Origin: a virus
DNA: 64,000 bases
Strand: one strand, 5' to 3'
Virus record (IMG/VR): IMGVR_UViG_3300034198_008895
Span: 99,395-163,394 of that record
Shown here in pieces: positions 4,861-46,214 of this stretch; positions within the stretch are counted from its first letter, which is position 1; each line of letters begins with the position of its first letter. A program made the position numbers and the translations under genes. A model generated the notes under the pieces. It made no database searches and was not told where the DNA came from. It saw nothing but the letters and a program-made list of their open reading frames with translations.

Positions 4861-5260
4861 TAGCGTTTATCCTGTCCAATCTCTTATTGTAGATTACCAG
4901 GTAACCTTCGTCAGAGATTGTTAGACTATAAACATTAATATGATTGTTCGAATGTTTTTGTTGAATAAACTCTTCTATATATAGACTCACGTCCATATAT
5001 AGAGGTAGTTCTTGAATGATATTAAGTTCGGTTAGGATCTCTTCTAAGCTAAGCCGCTTATTGGCGATATACAGGAAAAACTGATTGTAGCTGCTATCTT
5101 CAAAGATGGTGTTACGCAGCGCATCATAATTCATGTAGTTATAGATGCAGATGTTTGCAACAAGCATACGATAAAACATATCACGATACTTAAAATATTG
5201 ACTATTCATTTCTCGTTTTATATTATTAACGTTAACTTTTAATGAGTCGGTTCTCATCAA
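4847..5260 (-). CDS. unassigned small protein, first gene of the run
   Basis: A 137-residue protein and first gene of the minus-strand run ending at 2471. It is helical and Tyr/Asn-rich, then has a C-terminal beta-hairpin containing two Gly-flanked strands. The phage-type promoter at 5323-5350 lies about 60 bp upstream. The function is unknown. Confidence 0.7.
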   Translation of the reverse strand: MMRTDSLKVNVNNIKREMNSQYFKYRDMFYRMLVANICIYNYMNYDALRNTIFEDSSYNQFFLYIANKRLSLEEILTELNIIQELPLYMDVSLYIEEFIQQKHSNNHINVYSLTISDEGYLVIYNKRLDRINANVQP

Positions 5261-5322
5261 TTTCCCCTTAGTTATACAGACTATTTAGCGAAAATTAAGA
5301 TTTTAATAATGCTAGTACAGAT

Positions 5323-5350
5323 ACTATATATGTGTTTGAAATACATCCCA
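5323..5350 (-). promoter_or_regulatory. phage-type promoter (TATAGT subclass)
   Basis: On the minus strand a CACATATATAGT core carries -10 TATAGT, with a 16-bp spacer to a poor -35 (TGGGAT). It matches the family found upstream of eleven other minus-strand units and sits ahead of the 5260-2471 run. Confidence 0.65.
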
Positions 5351-5360
5351 AACAAAAAAA

Positions 5361-5385
5361 AAAACAACACTTGTGTATGTTGTTT
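5361..5385 (-). terminator. intrinsic terminator
   Basis: A short ACAACA/TGTTGT stem with inner pairing is followed on the minus strand by a run of more than ten T. It ends the unit of the genes at 5401-5891. Confidence 0.75.
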
Positions 5386-5400
5386 TTGATCGTATTTTTC

Positions 5401-5610
5401 TTAGCAACGATCATTGCTGTTATACGCAACATCTACGAGATCACCGTTACCGGCAATGGTGATACAAACATCACCTTCGTAGATATGCAGATATGAATCA
5501 TCGCCTGCCAACATTTCCGGAGGGTATTGTTTTAACAACAGTTCCATCCGTTGATCTGAAGACATGGCTTCGTACCGCGCCTTGGCAATGTCAAGTTGAT
5601 TGACGTACAT
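5401..5610 (-). CDS. unassigned small acidic protein
   Basis: A 69-residue acidic protein with an excellent AAGGAGG ribosome site before its ATG. The N-terminal half is helical; the C-terminal half looks like a small beta-sheet with a Gly-Asn-Gly turn. It lies 14 bp after the gene at 5625-5891 and shares its promoter. The function is unknown. Confidence 0.7.
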   Translation of the reverse strand: MYVNQLDIAKARYEAMSSDQRMELLLKQYPPEMLAGDDSYLHIYEGDVCITIAGNGDLVDVAYNSNDRC

Positions 5611-5624
5611 ATAACCTCCTTCTC

Positions 5625-5891
5625 TTAGTTCTGGTAACCCATCTTGCGAAAGACTGCGTTACGCATAGTGTTAATGACGGTTGCGTCACGGCACACTTTC
5701 CAGGCAGCATTAAAACTACCTTCAGTTGCAAACAATGCAGTAGCCAGGTTACGGTCATAACCAAGTTCAACTGCACATTCGATATTTTGCTCACAGGCTT
5801 TAGCAGCGTTAATACGAGATTGCTCAGCTTGTGCAAAAATTTGAGATGCCAGATTGTTTTGAATCTGGTTAGTCATCGTGATACCAAACAT
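5625..5891 (-). CDS. unassigned small helical protein
   Basis: An 88-residue, Ala/Gln-rich helical protein. The ATG at 5891 is preferred because GAGGAG lies 6 nt upstream; the longer reading would begin with GTG inside that region. Two Cys residues lie in the middle helix. The promoter at 5936-5963 is directly upstream. The function is unknown. Confidence 0.7.
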   Translation of the reverse strand: MFGITMTNQIQNNLASQIFAQAEQSRINAAKACEQNIECAVELGYDRNLATALFATEGSFNAAWKVCRDATVINTMRNAVFRKMGYQN

Positions 5892-5935
5892 GATTTTCTC
5901 CTCGCTCACTTAAGAGCATTAAATTAATGTCACCT

Positions 5936-5963
5936 ATTATATATGTAACTGAAGAAAATTCAA
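5936..5963 (-). promoter_or_regulatory. phage-type promoter
   Basis: On the minus strand, -35 TTGAAT, a 16-bp spacer ending TTACATA, and -10 TATAAT. It starts right after the terminator at 5973-6002 and drives the small genes at 5401-5891. Confidence 0.8.
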
Positions 5964-5972
5964 AGACAAAAA

Positions 5973-6002
5973 AAGAAGAAGGACCCGAAGGTCCTTCTTC
6001 TT
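5973..6002 (-). terminator. intrinsic terminator
   Basis: A 12-bp stem (AAGAAGAAGGAC and complement) followed by T-rich sequence on the minus strand. Its 5' arm contains the stop region of the TilS-like gene. Confidence 0.85.
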
Positions 6003-7008
6003 AAACTTTCACTGTGACAGGCTCAGGATTGAATACACGAATATACTCATCATCACGCAAGAGCATGAAACGAGAATCTCCGATCCTCACACTAAGACTT
6101 GTGATATCACCTTGTAAAGCCTGATTGAGATTTTGCAAAACATCACCGGTCAAATCGATATCATGAACTTTCTTAAAGTATTCACGAATGACAAACAATC
6201 GATTACCTGGAGAAAGATTGATAAAGTCATTCAGTTTCCATTCGCCTGACAGAATGTTAATAGACAGGTTAGGAGCTGAAGCTTCGTCGACCAACTTACG
6301 AACACCAGTAACACTTTCAATAAAACCACGCAGATTAAAGCGATGGTTGATCATTGGCATAATATTGTTACGGATATAAGTGAGATCGAGCGACTCCATG
6401 TTATGTAATTCTTCGCAGGTTAAAAACTCAACCGGGTTATACCGAGCATAGTCTAAAACCACAGAACGATCAATACCCAAGAAAGGACGACCAACATCAC
6501 GTTTAATTCCGTTGTTATCATACGTTGTTAAGAAAGTAGAACCACGAAGTCCGTTAGGATTGCTACCATTCAACAAACGAAGAAGAAAAGTTTCAACCAT
6601 CGTGTCTGTTGTATCAGGCAACAAAATAAGATCGATGTCTTCTGATTTGAAAATCAAGTCGGTATAAACTTCGTGAACATTGTCAGGAAACATGACAGAA
6701 TGAGCTTTGGTGTTACAGACCTGCATCGTGATCTTACAGCCGTATTCTTCTGCCTTTTTAAGCGCGATGTCATCGGCATCCTTGGCACGCGAAAAATCCG
6801 CATAACTCAAATACAGGATGTGAAGCTCATAATTCATCGTGTCCTTAAATTTGGACGCAATATCCAAAAGAACAGAGCTATCAGTGCCAGACGTATATAG
6901 AACACCGACCTTGATTCGTTTACCATTAAGATTCTTGTTATAGTTATAACCGGCAACGAAGTTCTTGAATTGTTCTTCAGCCAAATGCAAACCATTTTCA
7001 AACATCAT
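6001..7008 (-). CDS. tilS: TilS-like PP-loop ATPase (tRNA lysidine synthetase family)
   Basis: A 335-residue protein of the N-type ATP pyrophosphatase family. A PP-loop (TSGTDSS) lies at residues 39-45. The TilS-type segment around residues 130-220 is recognisable: an ETFLLRLLNG block, a GL(R)G turn, an RPFLGIDR block and a YIRNNIMP block. Family members adenylate C34 of tRNA-Ile(CAU) and replace it with lysine. The usual HHxDDQ-type metal motif is replaced here by PDTTDT, so specificity may differ. The C-terminal third is poorly conserved. It lies 15 bp from the wall hydrolase gene upstream. No tRNA-Ile is present in this window. Confidence 0.8.
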   Translation of the reverse strand: MMFENGLHLAEEQFKNFVAGYNYNKNLNGKRIKVGVLYTSGTDSSVLLDIASKFKDTMNYELHILYLSYADFSRAKDADDIALKKAEEYGCKITMQVCNTKAHSVMFPDNVHEVYTDLIFKSEDIDLILLPDTTDTMVETFLLRLLNGSNPNGLRGSTFLTTYDNNGIKRDVGRPFLGIDRSVVLDYARYNPVEFLTCEELHNMESLDLTYIRNNIMPMINHRFNLRGFIESVTGVRKLVDEASAPNLSINILSGEWKLNDFINLSPGNRLFVIREYFKKVHDIDLTGDVLQNLNQALQGDITSLSVRIGDSRFMLLRDDEYIRVFNPEPVTVKV

Positions 7009-40614: not shown

Positions 40615-40688
40615 TGGTGCCCCGAGTCGGAATCGAACCAACGCCTGAGGATTACAAATCCACTGCACGACCTTCATGCTACCGGGGC
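40615..40688 (-). tRNA. tRNA-Thr (UGU)
   Basis: A 74-nt cloverleaf on the minus strand: acceptor GCCCCGG/TCGGGGC, a 4-bp D stem, an anticodon loop TTTGTAA with anticodon TGT, T arm GTTGG-TTCGATT-CCGAC, and discriminator A with encoded CCA. One T-T mismatch is in the anticodon stem. It would read ACA and related Thr codons, which are common in this AT-rich genome. Confidence 0.92.
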
Positions 40689-40694
40689 ACGCAA

Positions 40695-41039
40695 TTACTT
40701 ACTCAGATTGTCTGTGATAGCAGAGGTTTGAGAAGCTTGCGCCTTCAGTGTTTTACTGAAGTTATTTAAAGCTGAGAGAGCATCATGCCAAACACTTGAT
40801 CCGCCTGACACAGCAAGACCAACAAGAATTGACACAACAATAGGATCAAAGTTAAACAGCTTGAACTCAGGTGGTTGAACCACCGAAAGAACAATACCGC
40901 AAGCAAACGTGATCAATTGATACACACTGCTATTAACATTCTTCTTTTCAAGATAAGCACGTTTAAGAATGTCTGTAACGCGTTCAGCGCCGACAGCAAT
41001 CAAAGCAACGTACTGAATAAAGTCAACGATTTGATCCAT
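40695..41039 (-). CDS. small membrane protein, possibly holin-like
   Basis: A 114-residue protein; the ATG at 41039 follows TTGGAG. Hydrophobic helices lie near residues 5-20, 42-58 and 68-85, and the third is Gly/Ser-rich and followed by a WHDAL segment. The C-terminus is polar and helical. It lies between two tRNA genes. The size and topology would suit a holin-type protein, but no family motif proves it. Confidence 0.62.
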   Translation of the reverse strand: MDQIVDFIQYVALIAVGAERVTDILKRAYLEKKNVNSSVYQLITFACGIVLSVVQPPEFKLFNFDPIVVSILVGLAVSGGSSVWHDALSALNNFSKTLKAQASQTSAITDNLSK

Positions 41040-41086
41040 AGTAATCTCCAAGTTATGTACCGAAATATTTATTTTTTAATAGAATG

Positions 41087-41176
41087 TGGCGGAGGCTGTG
41101 GGATTCGAACCCACGAGAGTCTTTCGACTCTGACGGTTTAGTAGACCGTTGATTTCAACCACTCATCCAAACCTCC
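41087..41176 (-). tRNA. tRNA-Ser with anticodon ACU
   Basis: A 90-nt class II tRNA on the minus strand: acceptor GGAGGTT/AGCCTCC, discriminator G with encoded CCA, a long variable arm (GAGTC-GAAA-GACTC), T arm GTGGG-TTCGAAT-CCCAC, and anticodon stem ACGGT/ACCGT around loop CTACTAA. The anticodon is therefore ACT, reading AGU/AGC Ser codons. An unmodified or inosine A34 is very unusual for this box, where GCT is normal. Confidence 0.88.
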
Positions 41177-41281: not shown

Positions 41282-42823
41282 TTAAGCAAGAACTTCTTCA
41301 AGAATGTTATCACCTGAATCTTCGAAATCTTTAGGTAGTTTCTTCATACCACTATTTTCGGTATGTAAGTCACCTAGGACAGGAATATTCAGACCAGGGA
41401 AACGATAAAGAACATATTTATCTTCATCAGAAATTACAGTTGAAAGTCGATGTTTTCCTCGACGGATTGAAATGTATTTACGTCGTTTATGTGTGAAGAG
41501 ATGCAAGTAGAGTTCAAGATCTAGTTCTTGATCGATAGTCTTACAACCATCGGTGTAACCCTTCTCTGCAATCTCATTAACGAATTGATGTTCAGGAACA
41601 CCATTACGAATAAGTTGTTTAGCTTCTGTGGAAAGCTGATAAGGAGAAATGAAAGCGATATTACGTGCTGAACAGAAGTTACGAACACGACGAACGAGAT
41701 CACGTTTATCTTGTCCAGCAGCACCTTGCAAACAACCTGTAGTAGGCATCTTCAAAAGGTAATCACACATCAGAACGTGAACAGCGTAACCTTGTGCTTC
41801 AAGTTCAATGATGTAATTAAGAAGTGACGAGAGAGTCCATTGCGATGGATCAACTCGCCGCATCTTGATATGGAATCCAGTAGCTGTAAGTTTGGCGTGA
41901 ATGTATGCAGACATCTCAGCAGCAGATAGTTCACCAAAGTCACGAGCATTGACCGGTGTGCCTTCCATTGCTTTAAGATACTGATACATGAACTGAAGAT
42001 TATTGGTTAGATTATCTTCAAATGAGATACGAACAAGCAGAGGTTTCTTACCAGCTTCTTGTTCTTCTTTTGTAGGAATAGGCGCATTCTCTGTCGCAAG
42101 TTGTATAAATGCAGACAAAGAGAAACCTGTTTTGTATTTATGTTGAAGTGCTTCAATACCAATACTCTCACCACGACGAATGCCGCCTTGGGTCATCGTA
42201 TTGACGTCTTGCCATCCAAGTTTATAAACACCAGAGTTATCATTAAGACTTTTAACTTCTTCACAGACTGAAGTAATGGACTCGAGATTCTCAAAGTCAA
42301 TTTCATTCACAACAGCCGGATCTTTCAATGTTGAGATTACACTAGTAAGTGGTTCAAGATCTGAAAGAGTTGTCTTAAGATAATCACTAAAGTTTGTGAT
42401 CTTACCACGATTAAACTTTAGATCATAAGTTGCTTTGTTTAGAATTTCTATTGCAAGATGTTCTTTATAATAGTTATTCAGAAGTTTGATAAGAGATGTG
42501 ATAATTCGTTTGTTAGAAGCATCATCATGGTCAGGCTCGATAGAGTCTTTAATAATACCTAAAAGCTTAGAATCATTTTCTAGAATAAGTGCAAGACTTT
42601 GATGGATTACTTCTTTCGCAATCTCATCTTTTTCTTCCAATAATTCAATAGCAAATTCTTTTAAACGCTTGATCGCGTTATGACCATTAAAATTGAATTC
42701 AGGTGCATCAGTCTTAATGGTGTTTAGGATCGTACGTGCGAGATCGTCATTGTCAGTATTTTTAACGAGACGAGAGCGGTAGATCAGCGTGACTATCTTT
42801 GAAAGAATAACTCGGCTATCCAT
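41282..42823 (-). CDS. DnaB-like replicative helicase with degenerate Walker A
   Basis: A 513-residue protein. The C-terminal half fits the RecA-like domain of DnaB/T4 gp41 helicases: a GGIRRGESIGI strand, the P-loop position at residues 224-233 reading EALQHKYKTG instead of GxxxxGKT/S, a VRISFED block, Walker B-like VLMCDYL with Asp354, and a late RRGKHR arginine-rich loop. The N-terminal half is helical. It would unwind the phage fork. The altered P-loop keeps Lys-Thr but loses the glycines, so ATP binding may be atypical. Confidence 0.72.
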   Translation of the reverse strand: MDSRVILSKIVTLIYRSRLVKNTDNDDLARTILNTIKTDAPEFNFNGHNAIKRLKEFAIELLEEKDEIAKEVIHQSLALILENDSKLLGIIKDSIEPDHDDASNKRIITSLIKLLNNYYKEHLAIEILNKATYDLKFNRGKITNFSDYLKTTLSDLEPLTSVISTLKDPAVVNEIDFENLESITSVCEEVKSLNDNSGVYKLGWQDVNTMTQGGIRRGESIGIEALQHKYKTGFSLSAFIQLATENAPIPTKEEQEAGKKPLLVRISFEDNLTNNLQFMYQYLKAMEGTPVNARDFGELSAAEMSAYIHAKLTATGFHIKMRRVDPSQWTLSSLLNYIIELEAQGYAVHVLMCDYLLKMPTTGCLQGAAGQDKRDLVRRVRNFCSARNIAFISPYQLSTEAKQLIRNGVPEHQFVNEIAEKGYTDGCKTIDQELDLELYLHLFTHKRRKYISIRRGKHRLSTVISDEDKYVLYRFPGLNIPVLGDLHTENSGMKKLPKDFEDSGDNILEEVLA

Positions 42824-42873: not shown

Positions 42874-42906
42874 GAAAAAAAAAACACCAGGAGTTAACCT
42901 GGTGTT
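42874..42906 (-). terminator. intrinsic terminator closing the tas-TIGR unit
   Basis: A 9-bp stem (AACACCAGG/CCTGGTGTT) with loop AGTTAA, followed on the minus strand by about nine T. It lies 25 bp beyond the last array motif, so a minus-strand transcript through the array would stop here. Confidence 0.88.
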
Positions 42907-42930
42907 CTTCTTTATAACACTTTATTTTTT

Positions 42931-43643
42931 AATACTATCTCGCGGACTGGTTCACTTACTTGTCCTGTTACTATCCTGTATATTGGTTCATTGATGTGGT
43001 ATGCTACTATCGGGCAACTTGATTCCAATCGATGTTTATGATACTAACACTTAAATGTTTCACTGCCTTCTTTTGTTACAATCGTTCGCGATGGTTCACT
43101 CTCCTAAATGTTACTTTCATTGGATGTGGTTCGCATTCATTTCTTGCTACTGGTCCATCAAGTGGCTCATTCGTATAACTCTGTTACAGTCATGACTTAT
43201 GATTCACTTTCCTGTTTATGATACTTTCTACACTTATGGTTCGTTCTGTGAAGATGGTACGCTCTCCATAAATGACTCACACAACTTCATTGAAACTGAT
43301 TGACGTGCAGGTTCACTTCCGCTTAATGTTACTTTCAGTAATGCTGGTTCATTCGAGTATGCTGATACTAACGCTGGAATTGATTCACTTACCTCCTAAG
43401 ATACTATCTTTATAATGAGGTTCACTCGCCGAAAAATGTTACTGACAACATGTAGGGTTCAAACGAAAAATATGGTACTCATTCTTAACATGTTTCATTT
43501 TATTTCATTGATACAATCTCACGAATTGATTCACTCAAGCTTGCTGTTACCGATTCGAGCTTAGGTTCACTTTTGTATTCTGTTACTGTCGGTAAATATG
43601 GTTCATTCGTTTCCAGTGGTACTATCTCGAATATTGATTAAGC
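42931..43643 (-). repeat. TIGR array (tandem interspaced guide RNA array), about 20 units
   Basis: A non-coding array of two alternating short motifs. Plus-strand motif X (consensus GGTTCACT, minus AGTGAACC) starts at 42949, 42985, 43021, 43057, 43093, 43128, 43164, 43201, 43238, 43274, 43310, 43346, 43382, 43419, 43456, 43492, 43528, 43564, 43600 and, degenerate, 43636. Intervals are 36 (14 times), 37 (4) or 35 (1). Motif Y (consensus GNTACT, minus AGTANC) lies 17-19 nt after each X, from 42967 to 43618, plus one at 42931. The 10-12 nt stretches between motifs are all different, as expected for two spacers per unit. The period equals the 36-nt tigRNA length reported for TIGR-Tas systems. The array lies 32 bp after a Nop/IS110-type gene and is probably transcribed with it on the minus strand. 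Confidence 0.92.
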
Positions 43644-43666
43644 TACCACCCAAAAGGGTGGTAGCT
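43641..43666 (-). other. hairpin between tas and the array
   Basis: An 11-bp perfect stem (AGCTACCACCC and complement) with a 4-nt loop separates the tas stop codon from the first array motif. No U-run follows on the minus strand (TAATCAATATT), so read-through into the array is likely. It may mark the array leader or be a processing or weak attenuation signal. Confidence 0.75.
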
Positions 43667-43674
43667 GTTTACTG

Positions 43675-44553
43675 CTAGTTACGTGCTTCGATCATATGCG
43701 CATGCCCGAGGATTGCCAGTGCAAAAGGCTTCGGTGGTTCAGTGTTAAAGAGCCGGCGATACCATTCAGCGTGGAGATGTGATAAGAAGATCTTAACAGC
43801 CCAACGCCTGGCACGAGCATCAATCTGACCAGGAGGAAGTTTCCCTTGAGAAAGATGCTTATAAGCTTCAGTGGACTTGTTAACCTTCTGAGACAGCTCC
43901 TTAGCAAGATGAGTATTTTCACCACGCTCATTACGAGCAATTTCATATTGCTTTCGCTCGAGATAAAGCTTGCCATAGAAACAGTTTTCATTGCTTGACA
44001 TTTTCATAAAGCTTTGGCCGATCTTCCAGCACAAAGTCTTCAGAGAAGCATTCCACGGACGCTTCTGACCCTTCTCCCACTTCTGAGTAGGATCAAGACC
44101 AGCATAACGCCAGATGTGTCCGGCAGTTTCAACAGTGATAACACCGCAACCAGCAGTGCAAGGCTCACCTTGCTTGCAGCTATGTTTGCCGCCGCCGACA
44201 CACTTCCAGTGTTGCATGGAAATGTTTGCCAGAATACCAGCAGAAAGAATGGGACCGATGCCATAGATTTCACGCATCCAGCTACCCATCATGTGTGCTT
44301 CGGTGTACTTATCCAAAGCACGGACAATTTGTTTTTCTAGAACACTGGACTGAGTGGTTAACCAGTCAAACAGCTCATTCGGTTCGCCTGTCTTGGCGAG
44401 TGCACGCATTTGTGCTGCCGAACGAATGCGGTCGTCTTGAACAGTGTAATAACTGTCCACCAAGAAACGTGCTTCTGTGTCAGACAAGGTTGCACCTGCC
44501 TTTGCAAGATCACGAGAAAGACGTTGAACGGAAGTATTGAGTTCTTCTGACAT
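43675..44553 (-). CDS. tas: Tas-type protein: Nop/IS110-related RNA-guided protein without nuclease
   Basis: A 292-residue protein; the ATG at 44553 follows AGGAGA, so a longer frame starting inside that site is rejected. Residues 1-88 are helical. IYGIGPILSAGILANI (96-111) is a helix-hairpin-helix-like block, and GHIWRYAGLDP with KRPWNASLKTLCWKIG (145-180) matches the C-terminal IS110/IS116/IS902 transposase domain, which is structurally related to the Nop domain of box C/D RNPs. Cys118, 126, 132 and 136 could bind zinc. The IS110 N-terminal DEDD RuvC domain and HNH motifs are absent. With the adjacent 36-nt array it fits a nuclease-less TIGR-associated (Tas) protein that would use tigRNAs to bind DNA. 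It has its own promoter at 44618-44645. Confidence 0.85.
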   Translation of the reverse strand: MSEELNTSVQRLSRDLAKAGATLSDTEARFLVDSYYTVQDDRIRSAAQMRALAKTGEPNELFDWLTTQSSVLEKQIVRALDKYTEAHMMGSWMREIYGIGPILSAGILANISMQHWKCVGGGKHSCKQGEPCTAGCGVITVETAGHIWRYAGLDPTQKWEKGQKRPWNASLKTLCWKIGQSFMKMSSNENCFYGKLYLERKQYEIARNERGENTHLAKELSQKVNKSTEAYKHLSQGKLPPGQIDARARRWAVKIFLSHLHAEWYRRLFNTEPPKPFALAILGHAHMIEARN

Positions 44554-44617: not shown

Positions 44618-44645
44618 ATTATATATGCAATTAACCTATAATCAA
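44618..44645 (-). promoter_or_regulatory. phage-type promoter of tas
   Basis: On the minus strand, -35 TTGATT, a 16-bp spacer ending TTGCATA, and -10 TATAAT, 65 bp upstream of the tas start and directly after the terminator at 44657-44680. Confidence 0.8.
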
Positions 44646-44656
44646 AAACAAAAAAA

Positions 44657-44680
44657 AAACCGCCCTATTACAGGCGGTTT
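44657..44680 (-). terminator. intrinsic terminator
   Basis: An 8-bp stem (AAACCGCC and complement) followed on the minus strand by about ten T. The loop holds the stop codon of the 50-residue frame. Confidence 0.85.
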
Positions 44681-45426: not shown

Positions 45427-45705
45427 TTAGTTAAACACTGAATATGGGTTTGCTTTAACTGTGTAACCGTCACGAAGAATAATTTTAGTCTTTTCTAAGA
45501 AGACCATGATCTTACCAAAATCTTCTTCAGACCTCCAGTCAATACCAAGAAGCTTAAACTTGAACCCAAGTTGCAAACCGTTTAAGTTATGCATATGGGT
45601 CCAGGTTTGTGGGAAAATATCTTTAATAGCTTGTTCATTTTTCTTTAACCACTCTGTATTACCTAGAGTAGATTGAAGAGGAATATAACCAGTTTGATTT
45701 GTCAT
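45427..45705 (-). CDS. unassigned small protein
   Basis: A 92-residue mixed alpha/beta protein with several Trp residues and a 4-bp overlap with the upstream gene. TTGGAAAG precedes its ATG. The function is unknown. Confidence 0.66.
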   Translation of the reverse strand: MTNQTGYIPLQSTLGNTEWLKKNEQAIKDIFPQTWTHMHNLNGLQLGFKFKLLGIDWRSEEDFGKIMVFLEKTKIILRDGYTVKANPYSVFN

Positions 45706-46214
45706 TTCTTTCCAACCTTAAATTGTCTTTCGTTTAAGTTATCATATAACCAATCGTCTAATTCAAACCGACGTTTAGTCCAGAAATTGTTTTGTATCTT
45801 TTCACCGAGATAATAATTACGATAAGACTGAATAGCGTCAAGAACTTTATACTTTTCAGGCATCGCTTTTACAAATGGTGTTAAACCAATATTTGGTAAG
45901 TCGTCAGGTGGAAATTTTAATAAGTCAAAAAGACCAGATGACTTATGAATCTTTCCATAACGATATGTGAATTCTTTAAATAATGCTTCGAAATGTTGAA
46001 CTAACCAGTAGTAGTTTTCTTTACTAGTGTTTACCCATAGTGTACATGGATGTTTAACATGTGTCTTATGATAGATTCTAGAGTCTTCATTGCCGTGTAA
46101 CCGATGAACAGTTGACAAAAGCTGAGCACTCTCTAAAACCATTTTGACTATATGTCTGTTATGTAGATGAAGAGCCGCTATTCGCGGATCAGCATCAACA
46201 ATAAAGATATTCAT
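45702..46214 (-). CDS. pyrimidine-dimer-glycosylase-family phage protein
   Basis: A 170-residue protein with a segment order I recall from a widespread phage family often labelled pyrimidine dimer DNA glycosylase: DADPRIAALHLHNRH, KMVLESAQLLST, THVKHPCTLWV, NYYWLVQH, TYRYGKIHKS and GLTPF.KAMP. If catalytic, it would excise damaged pyrimidines, but the activity of this subgroup is unverified. It overlaps the cysteine-protease-like gene by 4 bp. Confidence 0.7.
   Translation of the reverse strand: MNIFIVDADPRIAALHLHNRHIVKMVLESAQLLSTVHRLHGNEDSRIYHKTHVKHPCTLWVNTSKENYYWLVQHFEALFKEFTYRYGKIHKSSGLFDLLKFPPDDLPNIGLTPFVKAMPEKYKVLDAIQSYRNYYLGEKIQNNFWTKRRFELDDWLYDNLNERQFKVGKK

Follow-up and report, generated by a model that had tools for sequence, protein, structure and literature searches.

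A TIGR-TasA-type dual-repeat locus in a phiKZ-like jumbo phage and candidate targets of related arrays

What is an array of paired short guides for, when the protein encoded beside it has no nuclease? The question is raised by a locus in the IMG/VR virus record IMGVR_UViG_3300034198_008895, analyzed here in a stretch of 64,000 nucleotides (nt) that we call the window (positions 99,395 to 163,394 of the record; the final 64 kb of a 163-kb contig). A first-pass annotation, made from the letters alone, had taken it for a TIGR-Tas locus of a phiKZ-like phage. Based on the results below, the locus almost certainly belongs to the TIGR-TasA systems of the dual-repeat type. In addition, our data support the view that the guide pairs of one group of related TasA phages have matches in an unrelated phage family, and that these are confined to the dual-strand geometry known from such systems.

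The array and its Tas protein

The locus includes the following elements:

42930..43644, minus strand: TIGR dual-repeat array of 0.7 kb, with alternating X and Y repeats in about 19-20 units
43675..44553, minus strand: tasA-type gene for a solo Nop/IS110-C-like protein of 292 amino acids (aa) without RuvC or HNH
44128..44211, minus strand: four-cysteine insert of about 27 residues in the Nop domain (C118, C126, C132 and C136)

The X repeat (10 nt, consensus [G/A]A[G/A]TGAANCA) was found in 19 complete copies and one truncated copy, AGCTTAATCA, at the 5′ end of the array (43635-43644). The Y repeat (10 nt, consensus GA[T/C]AGTANCA) was found in 20 copies, and a weak AAGTG remnant 3′ of the last of them (Y20) appears to be a truncated edge repeat at the other end of the array. 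The X-to-X intervals are 36 nt (14 cases), 37 nt (4) and 35 nt (1). Twenty X motifs at these intervals, each followed by a Y motif, had been counted in the first-pass annotation; both motifs were confirmed at their places on the minus strand, the truncated X being included in the count. The segments between them had been described as variable and 10-12 nt long. They do vary, but the length had to be revised, since conserved blocks of 10 nt leave spacers of 8 nt (in a few cases 7 or 9 nt). The G, A and C of X are invariant in 19 of 19 complete copies and the G and T of Y in 20 of 20; Y10 (AGTTTCA) and Y20 (AGTATTA) are degenerate. Correctly spaced motifs form a chain of up to 34 members in the array, against a maximum of three across 2000 first-order Markov shuffles, and elsewhere in the window chains do not exceed two. 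No open reading frame of at least 60 aa was found across the array. The Tas gene ends at 43675, about 32 bp before the array, in agreement with the earlier reading.

A Pfam search with the single Tas sequence returned no family. The protein matched phrog_4285, a family labelled transposase, at 1e-46, and Pfam Transposase_20 matched 33 of 39 Tas homologs. When the profile of these 39 homologs was compared with PDB, the E-values were 8e-25 for TasR (9mty), 2e-14 for TasH and 5e-6 for IS621. The AlphaFold model (pLDDT 83.6, pTM 0.80) is almost wholly helical, its N-terminus consisting of a helix and a coiled coil with no additional N-terminal domain. A Foldseek search of PDB yielded nine chains with E < 1e-3, all of them TasH or TasR with a probability of 1.00, which indicates a Nop-type fold. 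No nuclease family (RuvC, HNH or DEDD) was detected by profiles or in the model. Thus, the IS110/Nop-type domain without RuvC or HNH that the annotation had proposed was upheld by profile, model and domain scans.

The four-cysteine insert is common to the window Tas and that of L002, L083 has a cysteine-rich insert resembling it, and the other 36 aligned homologs have none. It is possible that the four cysteines bind zinc as a zinc knuckle. Other inserts, of about 50-80 residues, are found close to the Nop-domain KWEKG motif in the Tas homologs of L040-L046, L065 and L082. The 163-kb contig has one copy of the Tas gene, and among 50,697 public phage records just one relative of the window Tas was found, a remote one.

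The dual repeats, 8-nt spacers, 36-nt unit, truncated repeats, terminator and Tas fold bear out the assignment to TIGR-Tas. The TIGR-TasA system of Flavonifractor plautii (FpTIGR; Faure et al. 2025, PMC12045711) likewise has a solo Nop protein, two short alternating repeats, a 36-nt unit, an array downstream of the gene, truncated end repeats and a terminator. Its guides total 18 nt, whereas those of the window array total 16 nt (8+8), and it lacks the four-cysteine Nop insert and the location in a phiKZ-like jumbo phage beside a divergent DnaB. The window locus can be counted as a new TIGR-TasA member, carried by a phiKZ-like jumbo phage and with a four-cysteine insert. TasH from Salicola phage CGphi29 (SpTIGR; PDB 9w04, 21kl) shares the Nop fold and gave the best Foldseek matches, and SpTIGR is also phage-borne with a total guide of 16 nt; however, TasH has an HNH nuclease and the window Tas has none. 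TasR, the closest PDB sequence, has the same Nop and coiled-coil fold but possesses a RuvC domain, absent from the window Tas, and a different repeat consensus. The IS110/IS621 transposases are distantly homologous in their C-terminal domain, but they use a DEDD domain and a bridge RNA, while the window system has a guide array and no DEDD domain. CRISPR types IV and V-M are similar in having a guide array and in the concept of non-cleaving interference; in contrast, the window has dual short repeats, split guides and no Cas genes seen. CRISPR-Cas was rejected, as neither a single 25-36-nt repeat nor Cas proteins were found. Fibrillarin and L7Ae, partners in box C/D small nucleolar ribonucleoproteins, were not recognized among the neighboring proteins scanned, although no specific search for them was made.

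Spacer pairs and candidate targets

Some 85 further loci were collected from viral contigs and bacterial genomes. In nearly all of them, Tas is accompanied by a dual-repeat array on its own strand, and 2873 repeat-to-repeat distances equal 36 nt. The related arrays comprise about 1,290 units. Two loci missed by the motif scan (L031 and L087) show a 36-37-nt periodicity beside Tas, with repeats outside the consensus used, and are probably not array-less. The consensus ends of X and Y are CA/CA in 74 loci, CG/CG in four and CA/AA in one, so that box C changes jointly in both repeats, as has been described for the edge and loop repeats of TIGR (PMC12045711). Salicola phage records, from which the TasH system in that paper originates, were among the database matches.

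The nearest relative, L002, has a Tas 75% identical to that of the window and keeps the Tas-array-helicase order, yet has no spacer in common with it, and no relative shares more than one. Among related arrays, turnover affects whole units. Satellite DNA, the alternative that the first-pass annotation had itself named, was rejected on these grounds, the spacers not being conserved across relatives.

Comparison of related arrays revealed how the units are inherited. Even-sized interior replacements started after an X-type repeat in 99 of 101 cases, and unit replacements were spread evenly along the array, unlike the leader-end turnover of CRISPR. In shared cases, the right neighbor was kept for 97% of spacers after X and 58% of spacers after Y; between array groups the values were 86% and 2%, the pairs of arrays not being fully independent. 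Neighbor retention and replacement starts together indicate that the inherited unit is X-A-Y-B, with spacers A and B travelling as a pair; on this sequence pattern, X is assigned as the edge repeat and Y as the loop repeat. Whole X-A-Y-B units are traded among the arrays of close relatives (L009-L070), including same-place swaps, with no leader-end bias. Units with A and B swapped also occur, for example AGAAGCCC/TATCACGA and TATCACGA/GGAAGCCC. By the TIGR rule, such units would address one DNA site, and swapped spacers are functional in TasR.

For the target searches, we applied the dual-strand geometry of TasR, in which A is directly followed by the reverse complement of B (A.rcB), a rule derived from the 8-nt 3′ overhang. 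The IMG/VR scan of the swapped unit gave 32 exact matches, 11 of them within one family of related contigs; in the control geometry there were 20 matches, and no family contributed more than three contigs. A sample of 80 contigs of this target family was then gathered by helicase, independently of the guides. Exact A.rcB sites were found for 4 units (25 matches), against 0.25 units and 0.3 matches when the A-B partners were shuffled, and the three other orientations gave 1, 0 and 0 units. Because the seed site had been picked after the swapped units were seen, its units were dropped from the final test. Without them and with no gaps, 3 units and 20 matches remained; across 2000 shuffles, the mean was 0.11 units, P(>=3 units) was 0.001 and 20 matches were never reached. 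The P values serve as a rough guide, since related arrays do not contribute independent units.

The main sites are clustered within about 1 kb, at 5531-6519 of the 15-kb locus L210. Several array lineages have matches to them through different units, and at one site the matches of swapped units are on opposite strands. The sites fall in two small genes and in the sequence ahead of these. A sigma-factor-like gene lies on one side and a Sak4-like gene on the other, the latter followed by helicase and primase genes. Homologs of this candidate target region are on contigs L158-L188 and L211-L287, and the arrays are those of the L009-L053 group. The array group with targets comprises smaller phage contigs. 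No homology was detected between carriers and target phages; both were present in four metagenome data sets, for which there is no control for co-occurrence. In other TasA phage genomes, A.rcB gave 7 exact matches, against 4-9 in control orientations, so within this sample the TasA relatives do not target one another. Re-targeting in a shifted register, assessed over all units, showed no clear excess over controls. According to PMC12045711, it is not known what TIGR-Tas naturally targets, where its spacers come from or what TasA does without a nuclease, and we found no earlier report of natural targets in a literature search that was thin on subscription journals and bioRxiv preprints.

The window array itself gave a different result. 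Its pairs were compared with their own 163-kb contig in four geometries and with gaps of 0-2, and the matches equalled those of shuffled pairs. Three of its about 19 pairs were scanned against IMG/VR, where ATTCCAGC/GCATACTC, AGTTGCCC/TACCACAT and GCACGTCA/ATGAAGTT had 19, 6 and 8 exact places, respectively. These chance-level matches were taken as chance, since no contig carried a convincing second unit. Spacer-pair matching, a check suggested in the first-pass annotation, was therefore positive for related arrays and without a match for the window array (own contig; three pairs in IMG/VR).

Flanks and phage context

The surroundings of the Tas gene and array contain the following features:

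44657..44680, minus strand: hairpin resembling an intrinsic terminator, upstream of the Tas unit (9-bp stem, then a T tract)
44618..44645, minus strand: promoter-like site TTGATT-16-TATAAT, recognized solely by its consensus match (10/12 positions)
43641..43666, minus strand: 11-bp perfect hairpin in the gene-array gap, reaching into the truncated first edge (X) repeat
42876..42913, minus strand: strong rho-independent terminator closing the array at its 3′ end, with a 16-bp stem and a T-rich tail
41282..42823, minus strand: phiKZ-type divergent DnaB helicase, the next gene past the array terminator

The order on the minus strand is thus terminator-like hairpin, promoter-like site, Tas gene, 11-bp hairpin, array, terminator and divergent DnaB, and terminators on both sides bound the Tas-array unit. 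The site at 44618..44645 is, judging by its sequence, the probable promoter of Tas and array; promoter-like sites in the region are no more numerous than in shuffles.

Profile matches to phage families included RNA polymerase beta-type proteins, DNA polymerase, tail sheath and DnaB. Two proteins, DnaB and RNA polymerase beta, were compared with named phages and showed about 30-38% identity to those of FLC9 (a Burkholderia jumbo phage), PhiPA3, SL2 and Phabio. The carrier is a phiKZ-like jumbo phage, the multisubunit RNA polymerase beta proteins and the divergent DnaB confirming what had been suspected from the letters alone. The nuclear shell protein PhiPA3 gp53 was not found in the 163-kb contig, which is incomplete, in a search run without a positive control. 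Genes for tRNA-Thr (TGT) and tRNA-Ser (ACT) are located just past the helicase (window 40615-41176, minus strand), and a homolog of pyrimidine dimer DNA glycosylase is encoded near the TIGR locus (45702-46214, minus strand).

Proposed function and alternatives

Based on the above, we favor as reasonably probable the reading that TIGR-TasA carries out a nuclease-free, tigRNA-guided blocking of a competing phage or mobile element. We suggest the following course. Minus-strand transcription would yield the array RNA, probably on one transcript with Tas, and cuts within the X (edge) repeats would divide it into about 19 tigRNAs. These would be some 36 nt long, with an 8-nt spacer on either side of a Y (loop) repeat. 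Each tigRNA would be bound by a dimer of TasA, and the ribonucleoprotein would recognize a continuous 16-bp DNA site through pairing of spacer A to one strand and of spacer B to the opposite one. As TasA has no nuclease, the complex would unwind, bend and occupy its site, and in this way keep a competing phage or other mobile element in the same cell from being expressed or replicated. The blocking of competitor DNA proposed in the first-pass annotation is supported for related arrays by their A.rcB matches to an unrelated phage family; for the window array, for which no target was found, it would hold by analogy.

Several points weigh against this proposal. The window array's own targets were not found among the three units scanned in IMG/VR. 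The target result comes from one array group, with about 60% identity between its Tas and that of the window, and arrays outside the L009-L053 group showed no enrichment in the target family. Furthermore, TasR gave no phage protection in E. coli (PMC12045711).

It is conceivable, though unlikely, that TIGR-TasA regulates the phage's own or host genes or replication and is not a weapon. Binding its own DNA would not be suicidal for a TasA without nuclease, and in two phiKZ-like phages the locus adjoins the replicative helicase. However, no guide pair in any orientation matched the own contig above chance, and the spacers of the window and L002 are wholly different despite the similarity of Tas and the kept synteny. 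The fast turnover of related arrays is also ill-suited to conserved regulation, and those arrays match another phage.

An RNA-guided aid to DNA transactions such as segregation, packaging or recombination appears improbable. TasR bends DNA by about 180 degrees, and an association of some TIGR loci with parB has been reported and a role for the bend suggested (PMC12045711). A ParB-like gene (phrog_4715; 5254-6072, minus strand) also lies near the TasA array in L142, but no ParB was recognized among the tested proteins beside the window array. Self-sites in the own contig are likewise missing, and the guides are too variable for a fixed structural role.

There is very little to suggest that the locus is a remnant, either a decaying once-active locus or a non-functional satellite. 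Some repeats are indeed degenerate (Y10, Y20), but key repeat positions are kept while spacers vary freely, the Tas reading frame is intact, synteny with L002 is conserved and terminators stand at both ends. An IS110-family transposon with bridge-RNA-like repeats, to which the transposase labels of phrog_4285 and Transposase_20 might point, is hardly credible and was refuted by domain content (292 aa, no N-terminal DEDD/RuvC domain in the model), the Tas proteins being better matches than IS621 by profile and fold, and by some 19 guide units in place of one bridge RNA and a single copy in the contig.

Returning to blocking by TIGR-TasA, a broader statement, which we regard as evenly balanced, is that phage TIGR-TasA arrays serve as programmable nuclease-free weapons against the early replication genes of rival phages. 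Spacer pairs would then be selected jointly against one double-stranded DNA site and whole tigRNA units swapped at edge repeats, the window locus being the jumbo-phage version directed at a rival.

The locus adds a phiKZ-like phage to the range of TIGR-TasA. The guide pairs of its relatives, with matches in an unrelated phage family that cluster upstream of replication genes, offer a testable answer to the question of natural targets. If the proposal is true, such a system would have its first named natural targets, phages would fight each other through RNA-guided repressors, and real target-guide pairs would be ready for experiments.
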